From contig JALVAL010000103.1 in the NCBI GenBank assembly GCA_027011205.1, positions 1-36,591 of the forward strand: a stretch of 36,591 nt of DNA, read 5' to 3'. Shown piece by piece: positions 22,001 through 33,145 of the stretch (its first letter is position 1; the number at the start of each line of letters is the position of its first letter). Origin of the DNA: Gammaproteobacteria bacterium (GTDB lineage: Bacteria; Pseudomonadota; Gammaproteobacteria; GRL18). A program made the position numbers and the translations under genes. The notes under the pieces were generated by a model. It was not told the origin of the DNA and searched no databases. It worked only from the letters and a program-made list of their open reading frames with translations.

Positions 22001-22194
22001 CGCAAGTCATTGTCCGATAATCCAAGCTCAAATTGCTGAGCTTGGATGCTTTCAGTTTCTCTCACTATATTGTTTATTGATGCGTGAAGTTTAGGGTTGT
22101 CACCAAGCCTTCTTGTTTTTTGAAGCTTGGTAGTCATTTCCTTTACCGCAAGTCTTATGATCTTCAATTCCAAGTTTAAATTTTTATTTGACAT
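21997..22194 (-). CDS. Hypothetical protein (65 aa)
   Basis: Intact ORF at end of leftward operon, convergent with tailspike. Confidence 0.55.
   Translation of the reverse strand: MSNKNLNLELKIIRLAVKEMTTKLQKTRRLGDNPKLHASINNIVRETESIQAQQFELGLSDNDLR
22021..22046. terminator. Hairpin at convergent operon junction
   Basis: TCCAAGCTCA-aattgc-TGAGCTTGGA, 10-bp perfect stem just past the tailspike stop; no strong T-run. Confidence 0.5.
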
Positions 22195-22624
22195 AATATT
22201 CCTTCCAATGTTTAATTGCTGCGATTATTTTGTCTGACATATAATTGTCACGGCATTTTGCTTCTTTTAGCCAGAACCAGTATTCTCGGCAATCGCTTAG
22301 TTGTTCAATTTTGCTGCCATCGTGCAAGAAGTAGATGTCTACGTCTCCTTCAACTAACTTCGTAATCAGAATTACCGTTCCACCAGCTCTTACTCTGTTG
22401 TTACACCACCTTACTTGAGTTCCTCTTATTTCAGGCATTTTGCTTTTCGAACTTAACTTTTTATACTTCCCATATTTCAGCTCAAGGTGGCCTTCTTCTC
22501 CCCCTAAAAAACAATAATCCACATCTGGTATTCCAGCACTTGTAGCGTGCGATTCCACTCTGCTGGCATGCCATTGACCTGATAAACGAGAACTAAGCTC
22601 AAGCCATAAGTTTCTCTCAGACAT
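22184..22624 (-). CDS. VRR-NUC-like PD-(D/E)XK nuclease
   Basis: ATSAGIPDVDYCF...GHLELKYGKYKK (PD...ExK); ATG at 22624 overlaps DatZ stop. Confidence 0.75.
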   Translation of the reverse strand: MSERNLWLELSSRLSGQWHASRVESHATSAGIPDVDYCFLGGEEGHLELKYGKYKKLSSKSKMPEIRGTQVRWCNNRVRAGGTVILITKLVEGDVDIYFLHDGSKIEQLSDCREYWFWLKEAKCRDNYMSDKIIAAIKHWKEYYVK

Positions 22625-23123
22625 CGTAAATCTCCGTTTCAAACTCACCAAAATCCATCATGGAAATAACATTCTCAGTGGCAAGGTAGGCTTCCGGATG
22701 CTGCTGCGACATAGCTTCCAGGAATTGATTTAGTTTTCTTCTTGTGTACTCGGCTACCTGCTGCCCATGCCGATCAACTTGATTATATTTGATGAAGTTG
22801 TTGGCGTCAATCAAATCAGCTGCTTTGACTATTACTTGTTCTACAATAGAGCACTTATTTTTCGATTTCCCACCATACACATTGGATTTAATTCCCAATC
22901 TCGATTTAGCGGGCGAGGGTATGTCGCCCGTCATAACTTCATCTAAATCATGGTCTAATGCATACTTAATCACAAAAGTATCATCGATTTGCATTTCTGC
23001 ACAAATCGCTCTCGCTATCATCGACACATTAAATAAATGCTCAGCGAGAGACTGGTCTTTCACCGTAGCCACAATTGTCCACCGCTTTATTGTTTGTGAA
23101 AGCAATATGTCGTTTATGTTCAT
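22617..23123 (-). CDS. datZ: HD-domain phosphohydrolase, DatZ-like (dATP triphosphohydrolase)
   Basis: AEHLFNV...ALDHDLDEVMTGDIPSPAK...KAADLIDA (H...HD...D); ATGA overlap with MazG-like gene beside purZ. Confidence 0.82.
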   Translation of the reverse strand: MNINDILLSQTIKRWTIVATVKDQSLAEHLFNVSMIARAICAEMQIDDTFVIKYALDHDLDEVMTGDIPSPAKSRLGIKSNVYGGKSKNKCSIVEQVIVKAADLIDANNFIKYNQVDRHGQQVAEYTRRKLNQFLEAMSQQHPEAYLATENVISMMDFGEFETEIYDV

Positions 23124-23377
23124 TTTCTGCTCCTGTACTTATTTAACTGTTGCTGAACCAAGGCCAGTAAGAAATTTTGCACATCGGCTGCTTCTTCGAT
23201 AATGTGGATCATGTCTTGGTCACTTAACGCTTCTGACAGCTCTTCCAACTCGTTGTCCAGAGCAGACATAATCGATTGATGCGCTGCGTCTTCAATTTTT
23301 CCTTTATGATTGTTCATAGCCATCTTTACTTCAGCCATTGAATTAAGAATTTCCGCCGCCTCTTTGTATTTGTTCAT
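23120..23377 (-). CDS. mazZ: MazG-like nucleotide pyrophosphohydrolase, MazZ-like
   Basis: DNELEELSEAL...IIEEAADVQNFL (ExxE...ExxD); start at 23377 forms TAATG with purZ stop. Confidence 0.75.
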   Translation of the reverse strand: MNKYKEAAEILNSMAEVKMAMNNHKGKIEDAAHQSIMSALDNELEELSEALSDQDMIHIIEEAADVQNFLLALVQQQLNKYRSRK

Positions 23378-24390
23378 TACACTTCTTCCACGTCTTTTTG
23401 AGCCGGACCCCATCCCATATATCTTATTCTGTCTGGGTAATTGAATCGTATTTCCAATGCTTTATTTTTATCGTAATTACAAAAATTTAGAAAAATTTCA
23501 TCCGGCTGCGTTTCCCAGATAGCATCATTCATCTGCCTGTACGAAAAACCAAACACTCGCCGTTCTCTTTGTGTTACGGTTGTAAGTTCCGGAATTTGGC
23601 CCACCTTCTGCCAAGTTAATTCTTCTTGGTCGTCATAGCACCCGCCAGAAGTACCGCCTACCCTTATTGGATGCACCCTCGCTACGCCAATCACTTTGGT
23701 CAGCATAGGTAATGGAATCATCATGTCAGACATAAATCGAGCGGGGGTACACTCCCGACTTGTGGCGTATGGCCAAAAAGGCTGATTGATTCCTAAGCTA
23801 TATCCTTGTGCACCTTCCAACAGAATTCTTCGAGCACAACTGATTATCATCCTGTAATCTTCGTGGGACACGACTTCAACTCTTCCTTCAGTCAGCACTT
23901 CGTCGGCTTTCTTTGGTATTATGTCCTTATAGTTTCTAGCCAAGCAATGCCCAGGATCTGTTCTTCTGTTTATTTTCTCAATCATGGCAGCTGCAGACCC
24001 CTGCTTCGTGCTACCAATTGTGTGCAAGTGATCCTCTCCGTTAATATGCCTTGGAAGAAGAACGCAAGCGTTAGGGTGTATGGCTACCCTAAATCCACTA
24101 TACCCCAAACTATCGAGGTGGTCTAACTCGGCTATGAGCCTTTCAACACTAAAAACAGCGCCCGGCCCGATAACAGCCCACTCGCAGCTTGGTGACACTA
24201 CTCCGTTGGGCAATACCTTATGCACCATTTTCTGGTCTTTGCTGTCGATGTAGGTATGCCCCGCATTGGGCATATTTGCCGTGACACATACATCATAGCC
24301 TTCTTTTTCGGCTAAGTATCCGGCGATTAGCCCTTTCCCTGTAGATCCGTATTGCAGATCGATTATCATATCAGCTTTCTTCGTGTTCAT
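23377..24390 (-). CDS. purZ: PurZ, adenylosuccinate synthetase-like enzyme for aminoadenine synthesis
   Basis: IIDLQYGSTGKGLIAGYLA: Ser where PurA has the catalytic Asp (GDEGKGK); also NAGHTY, IGPGAVF, GSTKQGSAAA, EGAQGYSLG. Confidence 0.92.
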   Translation of the reverse strand: MNTKKADMIIDLQYGSTGKGLIAGYLAEKEGYDVCVTANMPNAGHTYIDSKDQKMVHKVLPNGVVSPSCEWAVIGPGAVFSVERLIAELDHLDSLGYSGFRVAIHPNACVLLPRHINGEDHLHTIGSTKQGSAAAMIEKINRRTDPGHCLARNYKDIIPKKADEVLTEGRVEVVSHEDYRMIISCARRILLEGAQGYSLGINQPFWPYATSRECTPARFMSDMMIPLPMLTKVIGVARVHPIRVGGTSGGCYDDQEELTWQKVGQIPELTTVTQRERRVFGFSYRQMNDAIWETQPDEIFLNFCNYDKNKALEIRFNYPDRIRYMGWGPAQKDVEEV

Positions 24391-24391
24391 A

Positions 24392-26635
24392 TTATTTACC
24401 TTTTTTCATTGGATTGTCGTCAATAATTGCGCCAGGAATTATTTTATTTATCTTGGCGATTCCTACTTTTATGCTTGGTATCTCATAAACTCTTTGTCTT
24501 CGCTTATTTATAGTAGGTCTAGTTGCCTTTATTCCGTAATCAGTAACTTTCTTAGCAAAAACGTTTTCTATTACTGGCCTTTCTCTCCGTACAGAGGCGT
24601 ATTCCTCATACGCCTCATAAAGTCCTATTTTGCTGACAATAGATGGCCACCCTACATTTTCATCTTCTTTGAGGTCAATGACCGGAATCTTTTCGGAAAT
24701 TAGACACTTTCTCCACCACTGAAATACAGTATCCCCCTGAGTGTTCAACATTCTTTGATCCGACAGTCCTTTTGTCTCGGGGGCTACCCTCAAATCGTTT
24801 GTTATCTCCCGGTTTAGTAATTCATATAGTATAGCAGACTTTCCGCCATTCTTCAACTCATTAAGAATGGCGTTAAAATACTTCCTATCCCCGCACCGTT
24901 CACCGGACACGTCCAATACGAACCATCTTCTAGACCCGGCTCCGGCTGGGATGACCCAATCACTGTTGGAAGCTATGAACACGTGGATCATGTTCCTGTA
25001 TAATAAAGCATCAACGCCTTTCCTTTCTCCTACAAGATTCCTTTCAGTCACCATTCCTTTTAACTTTCCTGCTGTTTTCTTGTTTCCTCCCCATGTTATT
25101 TCATCCGCAAACACGGTGATGGCGTCAAGCAAATGAGCATTAAAGTTCGACGTCAGATGCGTATCGTCTATTAGGTGTCTATGGTGAGGACCGAATAGCT
25201 CACCTATTGTATTAGCTAGAAGTCCCTTACCAGACCCCTCTGGTCCTCTCATTACTACTGCACATCCTTTTGGGTTAGCTGGGTCTTGGACCAAATCGGC
25301 CAACCAGTCTAGTATCCACTCATACAGATCATCGTTGTTGTCGCATAGCACATTCTTAATGTGACTAAAGAATAAATTACACTTTCCTTTCTCAGGTTTT
25401 ACTGAGAACCCGTTCCATGTGTTAAAGTATCCTTCCGGGACTCTGCCATCAGGGAACAAAGAAATTCCATTAATATATGTTCGCCTTCCTTCGTGACCTA
25501 GCCAAACGTCGGCTATTCCCACTCTTTTTGTTTTTCCGCCCACCTTAACTAGGACTGTTTGATTCTGCAGCAAAGTTTTGAACGATTCTTTATCTAGTAG
25601 TTGATAGTGCATATCTGTGTCGCACACTATTTCTCGCTCGGCCAATATTCTTATTTTTCCCCCTATAGATACTACGGCATAAGTCTCGTTCATCTTAGCC
25701 ACTACTTCATCGAAAGAGTTTCCTTTTGCGTCGTGATTTTCTATTTTCCACCCACCTTCTCTAGCGTAAAAGAATAGAGTACCAGCTCTCACGTTACCTA
25801 AATCATCGAACCCTTCCCATCTTATGTAGCATTCCCCGGGTGAATATCTCTCTCCCTTTTTTGACCAGTTGTCCCACAACTCAAGCCCTTCATCGTTATT
25901 CTGCTGAGATTTTATGGCCATCCCTACTTTCAGCCATTTATCATAATCACATTCATTTGGATCTATGAATGTCAACATTTTCTCTATTTGGTCTACTGGG
26001 ACTGCTTCATTGACATCATCCGATGTTACTTGCTCGTTTCCTCTGTTCGATGCAGGAGGATTCCAATGTACCCCTAGTAGATCAGTCATCCATTTCGGTA
26101 TATCTGGTATTGCTTCAGGCCAACTCTTCCACTCGTACATTTTTCCTTCAACAATAGAGGGGAATGCCACTATATGCCCTTTTGAACTAGTTTCCGTTCC
26201 TCCTCTTGTGTCAACACATTTAGCAATCTTATTGGTGGAAGAAGAAGCGTTTTCTTGCCATTTAAATAGCAAGTGGAGTCCATCATTTGGAGTAACTTGG
26301 GTGGGGCATACAGGAAATTCTTCACCCGCTCTTTCGAGTTGCCTCTCGAAGTTTAACAACCCGTCTTCCCCGCCATGCCTGTCTATATCGACAGCAAACA
26401 CTCCTCCCTTTATACCGCATGCTATCCCTATATTCCAGCCAGGGAATCTGCCTTCTTCCGGATGAAACCATTTTGTTATAACCCTTTTGCTTTTTGATGC
26501 GTTTGAATATGACACATTAAATTCTTTAGCCGGGAGTCTTTTTCCGTTCTTTACCAGCGGCAAAACCCTTATGTCCTGATCTATGTACCACAGGGCAGCT
26601 TCGTAAACCTTCCACTCTTGTGATGGGTGCTTCAT
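24392..26635 (-). CDS. PrimPol (AEP)-helicase fusion protein
   Basis: FAVDIDRHGG (DxD), DGLHLLFKW, DTRGG; then GPEGSGKG Walker A, TVFADEITWGG, VFIASNSDWVIPAGAGSRRW of D5/DUF5906-type helicases. Confidence 0.85.
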   Translation of the reverse strand: MKHPSQEWKVYEAALWYIDQDIRVLPLVKNGKRLPAKEFNVSYSNASKSKRVITKWFHPEEGRFPGWNIGIACGIKGGVFAVDIDRHGGEDGLLNFERQLERAGEEFPVCPTQVTPNDGLHLLFKWQENASSSTNKIAKCVDTRGGTETSSKGHIVAFPSIVEGKMYEWKSWPEAIPDIPKWMTDLLGVHWNPPASNRGNEQVTSDDVNEAVPVDQIEKMLTFIDPNECDYDKWLKVGMAIKSQQNNDEGLELWDNWSKKGERYSPGECYIRWEGFDDLGNVRAGTLFFYAREGGWKIENHDAKGNSFDEVVAKMNETYAVVSIGGKIRILAEREIVCDTDMHYQLLDKESFKTLLQNQTVLVKVGGKTKRVGIADVWLGHEGRRTYINGISLFPDGRVPEGYFNTWNGFSVKPEKGKCNLFFSHIKNVLCDNNDDLYEWILDWLADLVQDPANPKGCAVVMRGPEGSGKGLLANTIGELFGPHHRHLIDDTHLTSNFNAHLLDAITVFADEITWGGNKKTAGKLKGMVTERNLVGERKGVDALLYRNMIHVFIASNSDWVIPAGAGSRRWFVLDVSGERCGDRKYFNAILNELKNGGKSAILYELLNREITNDLRVAPETKGLSDQRMLNTQGDTVFQWWRKCLISEKIPVIDLKEDENVGWPSIVSKIGLYEAYEEYASVRRERPVIENVFAKKVTDYGIKATRPTINKRRQRVYEIPSIKVGIAKINKIIPGAIIDDNPMKKGK

Positions 26636-26655
26636 TATGTCTGCTATTTCCACTT

Positions 26656-28500
26656 TTAACCCCTTGTATTGTCTACTTTCTGTAATGCTTCGTGCCAATT
26701 TCTTCCTGCACCGTTCCAATCTAGCTTTAACGGCACACGAACCCTTCCTTCTTCTTCTATTCTCCTTTTTACTCTATTATAATACGGCTTCCAATCTTCC
26801 GGTAAGCTCATTGAATATGAGTCATGGGTATTCAATATAAGCCTTCCCTCTTCTCCCAGTTCTTCTTCTATTATCTTCCAATTTTCTTTATTTAAATCTG
26901 CCGATGTTGCTTGTATCAATAAGCCGGATGCCTTGTAAGATTTATATCCCCTAGGGAATCTTAGCCTGCGACCTGCTGTTTTTGTGAATATGAATCCTCT
27001 GTCCTCTGCTACCTTTTTGCATCCGTTTGCTAATTCTTTTATTCCAGGTATCCTTTGATGATACCTGTTTATTACCTCTAACGCTTCTTTCCCAGCTTTC
27101 TTATACCTTATGAGTTTGCCGTCTTTTGCTGTAAACTCGTCCCATGCCCATTCCATGCCCATTTTATCGGCTATCGCCCCGTTCCCCGAATTAAATATCA
27201 TAGATAAATTCAGTTGCTTTGCATTCGGTTGGCCAGAATAGGTTGCATTTCTGACTAGTCCCGTAAGAGAAGCAACAAATTCGTGGAAATCTAGGTCTGA
27301 GTTTTCTTTAAAGGCTGCAATGATTTCTGGGTTATTAACAAGATGGGCGAAAACCCGTACTTCGAATGAAGCCATGTCCCCATCAACCCATACTTGACCG
27401 ACGTCGGGTAAGAAAGCTGGCTTGATTATCGCAGCTTTTTCTTTGTTTCTGCTTGGAATTTGCTGCATGGCAGGGTCGTTATAACTAAGCCTTCCAGTGC
27501 CAGTTCCTACTCCCTCGTCACCCTTTGATTGATTTATGCTGGGGTACACTCTATCCTTTATTGCATGTTCAAGAACATGCTTTCCTAGGAATGTATCCCG
27601 CATCTTCATAGTGGACCTTAATTCTAATATGCATTTAGCCGCTGGGTGGTTCATTTCTCTCAAAACATCTGCGTTTATAGATGGCCCTCCTTTTGGAGTA
27701 GTTCCTATTGCCACACCATCCTTTGTCTCCCACACTCCGTCTGATACCTCTACGGGGGAGAACATCTTTTTGATTTGAGGAGAGGAATTTACATTTATAT
27801 TACTTCCAGCCCATTCATCCAAGGTTTTTTGCTCTTTTTCTATTAAGGGAGTAAGCTTGTCCATAGCCTTCTCTGCGTAGTCTAGATCTACTCTTATGCC
27901 CTTCATTTCATTTCTTATGAACGTCGGCATAAGACTAAGCTCAAATTCTACTATTTGCTGTATTCCTTGCCTTTCTATTTCTTCCTGCTGCCATTCCCAC
28001 AGAGCCAATGTGCCTCTTGTGTCCATCTTGGCGTAAGGAGCTACCACTTCGGATGGTGCTTTGTGTATTCTTCCTATTTGAACATTCCTAGTCGGCAGGC
28101 CACCAAATAAATCAGCCATTTTTTGGTATATCGTCGTATCTTTCTCCATCCCCATGTACTTTTTAAGAAGGTCATCTAGTTGATAACTAAACAAATGCTC
28201 GTTTATTTGGCACGCTATTATTACGGTATCTTGGCAATTAACAAGAGGGATGTGGATTCCTGTGTAATCTGACATTTTCACATCAAAACTGGCATTGTGC
28301 ATAATTTTTATGCCATCGTAATGCCTTAACTCATCATTTATCCAGTCAACCGCTTTTGGAGTTTCTCTTATGTCATAGTAGTAGTCTTTGCCATCTGGCG
28401 TACTAAGGCTGAACCCAAAAACCTTATCCGCCCTATACTTTAACCCAGTTGTTTCGGTGTCGTAGGACAGATAAGGAAATTTGTGTAAATCAGGGAACAT
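26656..28500 (-). CDS. dpoZ: Family A DNA polymerase with 3'-5' exonuclease, DpoZ-like
   Basis: Exo I DTETTGL, Exo II HNASFD, Exo III YAKMDTRGTLAL; motif A DMASFEVRVFAHL; motif B NAKQLNLSMIFNSGNG; motif C NTHDSYSM. Confidence 0.85.
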   Translation of the reverse strand: MFPDLHKFPYLSYDTETTGLKYRADKVFGFSLSTPDGKDYYYDIRETPKAVDWINDELRHYDGIKIMHNASFDVKMSDYTGIHIPLVNCQDTVIIACQINEHLFSYQLDDLLKKYMGMEKDTTIYQKMADLFGGLPTRNVQIGRIHKAPSEVVAPYAKMDTRGTLALWEWQQEEIERQGIQQIVEFELSLMPTFIRNEMKGIRVDLDYAEKAMDKLTPLIEKEQKTLDEWAGSNINVNSSPQIKKMFSPVEVSDGVWETKDGVAIGTTPKGGPSINADVLREMNHPAAKCILELRSTMKMRDTFLGKHVLEHAIKDRVYPSINQSKGDEGVGTGTGRLSYNDPAMQQIPSRNKEKAAIIKPAFLPDVGQVWVDGDMASFEVRVFAHLVNNPEIIAAFKENSDLDFHEFVASLTGLVRNATYSGQPNAKQLNLSMIFNSGNGAIADKMGMEWAWDEFTAKDGKLIRYKKAGKEALEVINRYHQRIPGIKELANGCKKVAEDRGFIFTKTAGRRLRFPRGYKSYKASGLLIQATSADLNKENWKIIEEELGEEGRLILNTHDSYSMSLPEDWKPYYNRVKRRIEEEGRVRVPLKLDWNGAGRNWHEALQKVDNTRG

Positions 28501-30448: not shown

Positions 30449-30781
30449 TGCAGAGTATGTATGACAGAATCTGCATACAAACCGATCTTCTGATGGGATG
30501 TAATTCATATTGTTGCCGCAGCACGATGGGGCTTTTTGCTCTGCTTCCTTTGCTGCTTCAATGCTTTTGTTGGTCCACACACTCCTTGAATTTTTGAATG
30601 GATGGTTGCTTTTGGGCTTCGTTTTTCTAGCGTAATTTACTTGTTCTGTTATGGCCCTTTTTACGCTATACCCTCTTCGCATTCTTGAAGTAAAACAAGA
30701 CAGGGACAAATCTGGTAGTGGTGATTTTGCCACCCAATATCTAGCAGGGTAGCCATCATACAATTTTCCTGTGAAACTCAT
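30410..30781 (-). CDS. Hypothetical zinc-ribbon-like protein
   Basis: CCGNN...FVCRFCH; ATGA overlap with SNF2-like gene. Confidence 0.6.
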   Translation of the reverse strand: MSFTGKLYDGYPARYWVAKSPLPDLSLSCFTSRMRRGYSVKRAITEQVNYARKTKPKSNHPFKNSRSVWTNKSIEAAKEAEQKAPSCCGNNMNYIPSEDRFVCRFCHTYSAPYRPSGDRIKEG

Positions 30782-32460
30782 GACATTTGCTCCATTACGA
30801 AATCCGCAATCGACTTTTTATCTCGCAGAGCTTTATTAATCTGCTTATCGATTTTATGGTTCATGGTTAGGTTAACATACAAACAAGGGTGCTTTTGGCC
30901 CTTGCGCCACGGGCGACGTTCGCTTTGTTCACGCTGAGTGTAACTAAACGAGTTAGAATAATAAAATGCCACAGTGGCTGCAGTAAGGGTTAGCCCTTTG
31001 CTTCCTATCTGCTGTGAAGTTATAAACGCCGTAACCTGAGGATCAGTTTGAAATTTTTCCATCATATCATACTTTTCTTGGCTGCTTAATCCAGCACCAA
31101 GGTGGACGTAAGTTCCGGGCCGATTTTTCTCGAACCATTTAACTATGTCTTCTCTTTCACGCGAGAACCTGGCCCAAATTATAAACTTACGCTTACTATC
31201 CAATTTTTCTACCTGTTCAATGAGGGCGTCCATCTTGGGATTTTTTCCTGCTATCTTAGTAATCCCATGCTTTGGATCCGACTTTCTCGCCATCGATAAT
31301 TCTTCAGGAGTAAGATCATATGGGAAGTACCCCCCAGTCACTTGCTGGTAACGGGTCATTCTTTCAAGGACTGTTTCAACTTCTATTACTCGATCATCCT
31401 GTGATGCTGTCATCATTTTGCTGGCCATATCATTGAGAATTTTCTTCTGTTCTGATGTAGGCTCAACAATAACCTCTTCATACAAACGTTTGGGCATATC
31501 CTCGACATCAGTAATTTTCACTGTGTACACATAAGGTTCAATTCTTTTAAATAAATCCTTAAGGTTATTGTATCCCACTATTTTGCGCCCTTCAAACCCG
31601 CCCATAACGCAATACCGGTTCTTGAACACAGTATAGTTTTTTACACCGATAATGGACCAGTCAAGGAATCTGAATTGGGAGAACAAATTTTCAACTCCTT
31701 CATCTACAGGAGTGCCATTGAGAATCGACCTGTATTTACACAGCCCGCCCAGTTCCCAGCAAATTTTTGTTCGCTTTGTTGACGGATTTTTTATCGACGA
31801 CGATTCGTCAATAGTCATATATGTTGCGTGTTTTAAAACGAACAGATTAGCTATTTGTTTTGCGTACGGCCCAGTAGACAAAGACTCTACTCCTACCACT
31901 AAAACCTTTAACCGATCACTTGTTTTATTAATCCACTTCTCTGCGTTTTTAGCTGCCCCTGACTCCATTATAAAGATATCATAATCAATAGGACAATGCT
32001 CTTCAAATTCTTTCATCCAAACAGGCTTAATGCCAGTGTCGCATACTATGAGCATGCCGTTTATTTCGCCCATCATAGCCTTTGCTGCGGCAAAATTAAT
32101 CGCTGTGAAAGACTTGCCAGTTCCCATATCCATTATATAGGCAAATGCTTCCTTAACAAAAGACTTATTAAGTGCTTCGCGCTGGCATTTCATGGGGGAA
32201 TTTTTAAACTTGTACCACGACGGGAATGGTAGCCTATTCTTGTCCCCGTCCAGAAGCTCATTTATTTTTTTCATAGCTTCCGGCTCGATGTCACTAGAAT
32301 CAACAACATCGTAAAAATATTTTGCGTTTGCCAGTGTTACAGGCGCTTCCCACTGCTTGTTCTTTACTACCCACTTTCTATCTGGGATAGCTTTTGCTAA
32401 GTGGTTTTCCCAAAATTCACATTTAAATATGAACGCGTTTCCTTCTTTTAATAATCTCAT
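30778..32460 (-). CDS. SNF2-family helicase
   Basis: DMGTGKSFTAI, MTIDESSSIKNP, LNGTPV, QREQSERRPWRKGQ. Confidence 0.88.
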   Translation of the reverse strand: MRLLKEGNAFIFKCEFWENHLAKAIPDRKWVVKNKQWEAPVTLANAKYFYDVVDSSDIEPEAMKKINELLDGDKNRLPFPSWYKFKNSPMKCQREALNKSFVKEAFAYIMDMGTGKSFTAINFAAAKAMMGEINGMLIVCDTGIKPVWMKEFEEHCPIDYDIFIMESGAAKNAEKWINKTSDRLKVLVVGVESLSTGPYAKQIANLFVLKHATYMTIDESSSIKNPSTKRTKICWELGGLCKYRSILNGTPVDEGVENLFSQFRFLDWSIIGVKNYTVFKNRYCVMGGFEGRKIVGYNNLKDLFKRIEPYVYTVKITDVEDMPKRLYEEVIVEPTSEQKKILNDMASKMMTASQDDRVIEVETVLERMTRYQQVTGGYFPYDLTPEELSMARKSDPKHGITKIAGKNPKMDALIEQVEKLDSKRKFIIWARFSREREDIVKWFEKNRPGTYVHLGAGLSSQEKYDMMEKFQTDPQVTAFITSQQIGSKGLTLTAATVAFYYSNSFSYTQREQSERRPWRKGQKHPCLYVNLTMNHKIDKQINKALRDKKSIADFVMEQMS

Positions 32461-32552: not shown

Positions 32553-33026
32553 CTATGCTGCTTTTGATTCGGAATTCTTTTCCGATGCAGCGGCCTTGGT
32601 TGCCTTAGCCTTTTCTTCGGCGGCAATACGGGCCTTGGTTGCCTTTACAAGAGGGGCCGACACCTTGGCAAACACTTCTTCACCGGTCTTGACGACGTTT
32701 TTATCCTTGTCCAGCACATCGGCTTTTCGCATATGGCCGCGAATTCGGTTGCCGATGTTCATGCGCTGCATGCCGCGATTCAGCTTCGCATAACGAGTGC
32801 GGAAATCGTTTTCACCGATAAACTTATCGGCCAAATCTTGCACTTCTTCCAGAGTCATACCTTCCAACGCCTGTGCCACCGGGTCACCATTGTTCAGGGA
32901 TTTCGTGCCAGCAGCAGTACGGGATGGTTGGTACTTTTCTTTGTTGACCGCAATAGTAACCTTGCTTTCATTGTCAGTGACCGGGGATTCTTGCTCAGAT
33001 GTTGCATCAGGGTTAACTTTTGACAT
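32553..33026 (-). CDS. Phage protein of the 'LNRGMQRMNIGNRIRG' family; paralogue of 818..1264
   Basis: LADKFIGENDFRTRYAKLNRGMQRMNIGNRIRGHMRKADVL; promoter P2 upstream, terminator downstream. Confidence 0.75.
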   Translation of the reverse strand: MSKVNPDATSEQESPVTDNESKVTIAVNKEKYQPSRTAAGTKSLNNGDPVAQALEGMTLEEVQDLADKFIGENDFRTRYAKLNRGMQRMNIGNRIRGHMRKADVLDKDKNVVKTGEEVFAKVSAPLVKATKARIAAEEKAKATKAAASEKNSESKAA

Positions 33027-33082: not shown

Positions 33083-33145
33083 ATTATACCATATCAGCTA
33101 GGGGGTGTCAATCCCCTTTTATCTTCGAGCCGACGAACGGTATTG
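33083..33145 (-). promoter_or_regulatory. Leftward sigma70-like promoter P2 with upstream box
   Basis: Minus strand: CAATACCGTTCGTCGGCTCG-N14-TTGACA-N17-TATAAT. Confidence 0.9.

Follow-up and report, generated by a model that had tools for sequence, protein, structure and literature searches.

An uncultured phiVC8/ZP6-type virus with a divergent, complete candidate gene set for Z-DNA

Phages are known that carry a dedicated gene set for Z-DNA, in which 2-aminoadenine (Z) takes the place of adenine. The likely benefit of Z is that host nucleases which recognise A no longer cut the DNA (PMC8599892, PMC8515928). In DatZ of cyanophage S-2L the metal ligands and the phosphate-binding Arg and Lys residues have been assigned, together with a Trp that blocks ribose and an Ile that blocks the 2-amino group (PMC8065100). 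The residues of S-2L PurZ that contact dGMP, ATP and aspartate have been described as well and serve here as the reference for our pocket comparison (PMC8342488). S-2L also provides the characterised MazZ-1, from which MazZ-2 proteins differ in their base-binding residues (PMC8342488), and a 2026 study describes MazZ-2 as a distant homologue of MazZ, the latter being the enzyme that hydrolyses dGTP to dGMP (PMC12884076). In the Vibrio phage phiVC8, PurZ and DpoZ have been characterised, and three insertions and four unusual residues are described for this DpoZ (PMC8599892). Alteromonas phage ZP6 is a podovirus that was put in its own genus, as it shares less than 30% of its genes with Enhodamvirus (PMC8515928). 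The module itself has already been described. What is new here is a divergent, complete example of the phiVC8/ZP6 type, a distant relative of both phages.

The stretch of DNA analysed, called the window here, is a contig of 36,591 bases (C103) in a genome bin of 639 contigs and 3.73 Mb. In a viral contig scan its PurZ was 100% identical to that of the IMG/VR record IMGVR_UViG_3300028030_000036. In the left part of the window the plus strand encodes head, connector and tail proteins, and in the right part the minus strand encodes the replication proteins. In transcription order the replication block consists of a helicase, phrog_2378 (DUF7307), phrog_2402 (Pam3_Gp34), a single-strand DNA-binding protein (SSB), the DNA polymerase, a PrimPol-helicase, PurZ, MazZ, DatZ and the nuclease-like phrog_2165 gene (Table 1). 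A reading of the sequence alone had proposed a complete Z module, and all genes that it named are indeed present as intact open reading frames on the minus strand. Chance matches are excluded by the E-values, which are 1.7e-96 for PurZ, 4.3e-265 for DpoZ, 2.3e-26 for phrog_7076 (DatZ) and 8.8e-24 for phrog_9860 (MazZ). The window is very probably the genome or near-genome of a short-tailed phage of the phiVC8/ZP6 type, with 2-aminoadenine instead of adenine in its DNA, and this uncultured bacterial virus carries what is, by sequence, the complete Z-DNA gene set known from phages. The sequence directly shows which genes are present, that their frames are intact, that active-site and selectivity residues are conserved, how the genes are ordered and where the proteins fall in trees; the enzymatic steps and the presence of Z in the virion are inferred. 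In the letters of the contig, Z would appear as A.

Table 1. Genes of the predicted Z module and of the adjoining replication block in the window
Feature	Coordinates	Strand	Evidence
phrog_2165 gene, directly after datZ	22184..22624	-	phrog_2165 1.4e-16; syntenic in phiVC8, ZP6
datZ, HD-domain dATP triphosphohydrolase-like, 168 aa	22617..23123	-	phrog_7076, YfbR-like, 6zpa, residues
mazZ (MazZ-2 type), MazG-like nucleotide pyrophosphohydrolase, 85 aa	23120..23377	-	phrog_9860, Pfam MazG and PRA-PH
mazZ, alternative from upstream ATG at 23413, 97 aa	23120..23413	-	
purZ, succino-2-amino-deoxyadenylate synthase, 337 aa	23377..24390	-	NF038379, PDB, residues, tree
PrimPol-helicase (Prim-Pol, PriCT_2, DUF5906), 775 aa from TTG	24392..26719	-	Pfam; phrog_1156 DNA primase 1.9e-94
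dpoZ, family A polymerase with 3'-5' exonuclease domain, 614 aa	26656..28500	-	NF038380, 7pbk, residues, tree
Single-strand DNA-binding protein-like, 84 aa	28500..28754	-	phrog_18154 7.5e-18; position conserved in phiVC8, ZP6, K300
SNF2-type helicase, same replication block	30778..32460	-	phrog_62 5.1e-104; 41% to phiVC8, 34% to ZP6

The arrangement of these genes corrects the sequence-only reading in two details. Overlaps of 4-5 nt had been proposed, which holds for datZ and mazZ, where 4 nt (ATGA, 23120-23123) are shared, but not for mazZ and purZ, which overlap by 1 nt (TAATG) if mazZ begins at the ATG at 23377; with the upstream ATG as start, the overlap grows to 37 nt. A ribosome-binding-like sequence (GGAAG) belongs to the ATG at 23377, and the phrog_9860 alignment begins there. 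The PrimPol-helicase and the polymerase do adjoin the Z cluster as proposed, but they precede it in transcription rather than follow it. For the PrimPol-helicase, which is 45% and 42% identical to its phiVC8 and ZP6 counterparts, the ATG at 26635 is a likelier start than the TTG. The phrog_2165 family is listed as 'DNA helicase', and the ZP6 counterpart is annotated as a nuclease.

The window PurZ reaches 322.9 bits against the curated NCBI model NF038379 (cut-off 300). Its best matches in the PDB are the phiVC8-type PurZ entries 6fm1 and 6fko (2e-108), followed by S-2L PurZ 7odx (3e-54), whereas PurA structures reach about 1e-19 at best; 6fm1 is phiVC8 PurZ (PMC8342488). The motif given earlier for this protein, IIDLQYGSTGKG, is exact, and alignment to PurA places Ser where PurA has the catalytic Asp: Ser16 aligns with Asp14 of the PurA encoded in the bin, which corresponds to Asp13 of E. 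coli PurA. The cellular PurA of the bin is a separate protein of 431 amino acids on another contig. The dGMP/ATP pocket is kept in S16, N42, A43, G44, H45, T46, T128, R142, Q195, R243, V244, T270-T273, R277, N302, F303, N305, G328 and P329. Here N305 stands for Q308 of S-2L PurZ, like N297 in phiVC8, and the only pocket change is C204 of S-2L, which is Ala in the window (A209) and Val in SH-Ab 15497. A maximum-likelihood tree puts the protein in a PurZ clade of 12 rows (support 95/95) that includes phiVC8, ZP6, S-2L and SH-Ab 15497 and stands apart from PurA and from the PurZ0 of actinobacterial phages; its nearest neighbours are phiVC8, K300 and ZP6. The earlier reading had named a grouping of PurZ, the HD protein or the polymerase with non-Z homologues as its refutation, and PurZ does not group in this way. 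A scan of genome contigs with the window PurZ found no relatives. Besides the virus's own record, the scan of viral contigs returned two contigs (L006 and L007, one of them 341 kb) with PurZ/PurA-like proteins that are 28% identical.

The polymerase scores 880.8 bits against NF038380 (phage_DpoZ_1, cut-off 500) and only 25.9 against the DpoZ_2 model (cut-off 350). Among solved structures 7pbk comes closest (7e-219); we take it to be that of phiVC8 DpoZ. Insertions 1-3 in palm and fingers are present, and L432, F436, G526 and S561 correspond to L455, F459, G548 and S583 of phiVC8. The exonuclease insertion of phiVC8 (117-127) is missing, as it is in the DpoZ of Bm1, BUCT555 and SH-Ab 15497. Phylogeny of the polymerase had been named as a further check, and the tree makes the protein a member of the phiVC8-type DpoZ clade (100/99). 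Non-Z family A polymerases, taken from phages absent among the PurZ matches listed, stand outside this clade. The exact position inside the phiVC8/ZP6 group is weakly supported in the PurZ and DpoZ trees.

DatZ and MazZ complete the set. DatZ has phrog_7076, 'dATP triphosphohydrolase', as its best family, matches the YfbR-like Pfam family above cut-off, and finds S-2L DatZ (6zpa) as its best PDB match. All HD metal ligands and dATP-selecting residues are identical to those of S-2L DatZ: R14, W15, I17, Q24, A27 and H29 correspond to R19, W20, I22, Q29, A32 and H34, the residues H58, D59, E62, G66 and D67 to H66, D67, E70, G74 and D75, and P71, K73, K100 and D103 to P79, K81, K116 and D119. By these residues DatZ is expected to degrade dATP but to leave dZTP and dGTP intact. 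MazZ lies between datZ and purZ and matches the Pfam families MazG and PRA-PH just above cut-off; the match to phrog_9860 begins at residue 13 of the 97-aa form. It is 54-55% identical to the ZP6 protein and 48-49% to that of phiVC8, and is the MazZ-2 variant of phiVC8-like phages; the unannotated MazZ region of K300, found by tblastn, was left out of the MazZ comparisons. The acidic residues of the ExxE...ExxD pattern are kept (E55, E58, E74 and D77 in 97-aa numbering), while N80 and A84 stand where S-2L MazZ has I56 and D60. The preference for dGTP is less certain for MazZ-2 because the base-binding residues differ from S-2L MazZ. The dGTPase role of the phiVC8-type MazZ-2 is taken from the literature, and the MazZ-2 step is the weakest link of the proposed pathway. 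Among PurZ, DatZ, MazZ-2 and DpoZ, MazZ-2 is also the least understood.

Read one by one from characterised relatives, the steps would be as follows. MazZ-2 would convert dGTP to dGMP, from which PurZ would form succino-2-amino-dAMP with aspartate and ATP or dATP. Host PurB and nucleotide kinases would then complete dZTP. DatZ would degrade dATP to deoxyadenosine, and DpoZ would prefer dZTP opposite T.

It might be argued that these genes serve only the ordinary nucleotide pool and encode a PurA-like enzyme, a YfbR-like nucleotidase and a MazG protein in a phage without Z-DNA. The general Pfam families do match, and MazG proteins are common in phages. Nevertheless, the curated PurZ and DpoZ cut-offs are passed, Ser replaces the catalytic Asp, both proteins fall into the PurZ and DpoZ clades, and all four functions lie in one block, so that this explanation is highly improbable. 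Identity as an ordinary PurA or PolA was rejected on the curated cut-offs and the PurZ and polymerase trees. A system of the PurZ0/Wayne type, in which PurZ0 works with DutZ/DmtZ and another clade of DpoZ, also has to be considered, since most of the 209 matching phage records come from actinobacterial phages, whose enzymes are of the PurZ0 type. The window PurZ is only 27-28% identical to the proteins of Arthrobacter, Gordonia and Microbacterium phages and has GSTGKG, not GSEAKG; the polymerase stays far below the DpoZ_2 cut-off, and the DatZ/MazZ-2 set is present. Curated-model scores, low PurZ identity and the PurZ tree refute this type, and its probability is practically negligible.

A further reading is partial substitution. 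Here the module would work, a mixture of A and Z would be tolerated, and MazZ-2, DatZ or DpoZ would be only partly selective. With the S-2L triad datZ-mazZ-purZ alone, no more than about 4-12% of A was exchanged in E. coli (PMC8342488), and the selectivity of DpoZ is kinetic and amounts to 10- to 100-fold (PMC8599892). Against this stands the combination found in the window, with all DatZ selectivity residues kept and a DpoZ-type polymerase, which is that of phages reported with complete replacement. We therefore regard a mixed genome as improbable; replacement of A by Z in the window phage is most likely complete and follows the described pathway.

The two ends of the contig (5-37 and 36559-36591) were compared for signs of a closed genome. 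Each has a stretch of about 18-19 A in a similar context, and the only match spans 33 nt at 88% identity and consists mostly of poly-A. This homopolymer may be where the assembly broke off, and the genome in the window may be nearly complete. Near opposite contig ends, at 818-1420 and 32553-33026 on the minus strand, lie paralogous genes for a protein resembling phiVC8 p36 (phrog_8941; 43% identity over 75 aa). A 44-nt repeat (1357-1400 and 33102-33145, 82% identical, with GAGCCGACGAACGGTATTG in common) is located near the 5' ends of these paralogues and is possibly a shared regulatory element.

The bacterium of the bin may be the host of the phage, and binning is no proof of infection. Its PurA is gammaproteobacterial, with up to about 70% identity to Ectothiorhodospiraceae, Chromatiaceae and other gammaproteobacteria. 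The bin contains guanylate kinase. PurB was not found there; a first PurB-like match was read from its sequence as an argininosuccinate lyase. Because PurB was found in 19 of the 24 family genomes searched, the bin being among the five without it, its absence looks like an assembly gap. Nucleoside diphosphate kinase (Ndk, PF00334) is absent from the bin and, with the bin included, from 23 of the 24 family genomes; of 14 control genomes, 12 encode PF00334. If the family of the bin provides the host, another kinase would be needed for dZDP.

The same bin contains contig C631 (IMGVR_UViG_3300028030_000021, 45,444 bp; L016:1494-3149, L015:16080-17807), which belongs to a second, distantly related Z-type phage. 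Its block encodes a DpoZ_1-type polymerase (511.4 bits against a cut-off of 500), an SSB, a PurZ-like protein that stays below the cut-off (205.6 against 300 bits), a MazG-like protein and a DatZ-like HD protein. This PurZ has GSEGKR for GSTGKG and NSGG for NAGHT; the His and Thr with which S-2L PurZ contacts the triphosphate are missing. The HD protein has HE for HD at the metal-binding pair, and in the polymerase insertion 1 is missing and insertion 3 is present only in part. The C631 system may be degraded or divergent. It is conceivable, if rather unlikely, that two Z-type phages of different lineages share one host population without Ndk, that dZTP is made there by another kinase, and that the C631 PurZ works without the His-Thr pair.

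The nearest isolates of the window virus are phiVC8 and other Enhodamvirus members, the K300 group and Alteromonas phage ZP6, with identities of about 53% for PurZ and about 56% for DpoZ and nearly no nucleotide similarity. Per relative genome (phiVC8, ZP6, K300), 20-23 of the 46 open reading frames of the window are matched at 20-57% amino-acid identity, and 0.4-1.6 kb of DNA can be aligned. The block SSB-DpoZ-PrimPol-PurZ-MazZ-DatZ-nuclease is collinear in all three. This collinearity with phiVC8 and with the podovirus ZP6 supports the proposal of another podoviral instance. By inference rather than classification, the window virus may represent a further genus-level lineage.

Vibrio phage phiVC8 (Enhodamvirus, with VP2, VP5, QH and others) has the same gene order, with identities of 53-54% for PurZ, 54-55% for DpoZ and 35-38% for DatZ. 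However, only 21 of the 46 frames are matched and about 0.4 kb of DNA aligns, and the tail fibre region and the right-end genes are unlike those of the window. Alteromonas phage ZP6 (Mareflavirus) shares the order including nuclease-DatZ-MazZ-PurZ-PrimPol-DpoZ, with 46% identity in the large terminase, 55% in DpoZ and 50-53% in PurZ, but it has 20 of the 46 frames in common, about 1.6 kb of alignable DNA and other tail genes. The Vibrio phage K300 group from seawater and oyster also keeps the order and has the nearest DpoZ in the collection (56.5-57%) and 23 of the 46 frames in common, while PurZ is 50.7% identical and there is little DNA similarity. The window virus adds a distant, uncultured branch, binned with a gammaproteobacterium, to the Z-DNA phages of the phiVC8/ZP6 type, and its divergent yet complete set of PurZ, DatZ, MazZ-2 and DpoZ offers material for work on the residues that determine Z selectivity. 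Cyanophage S-2L has a datZ-mazZ-purZ triad that agrees with the window in its three functions and their order, and its PurZ and DatZ have their catalytic residues in common with the window. It differs in having MazZ-1 and a PrimPol without DpoZ, and its PurZ is 37-39% identical.
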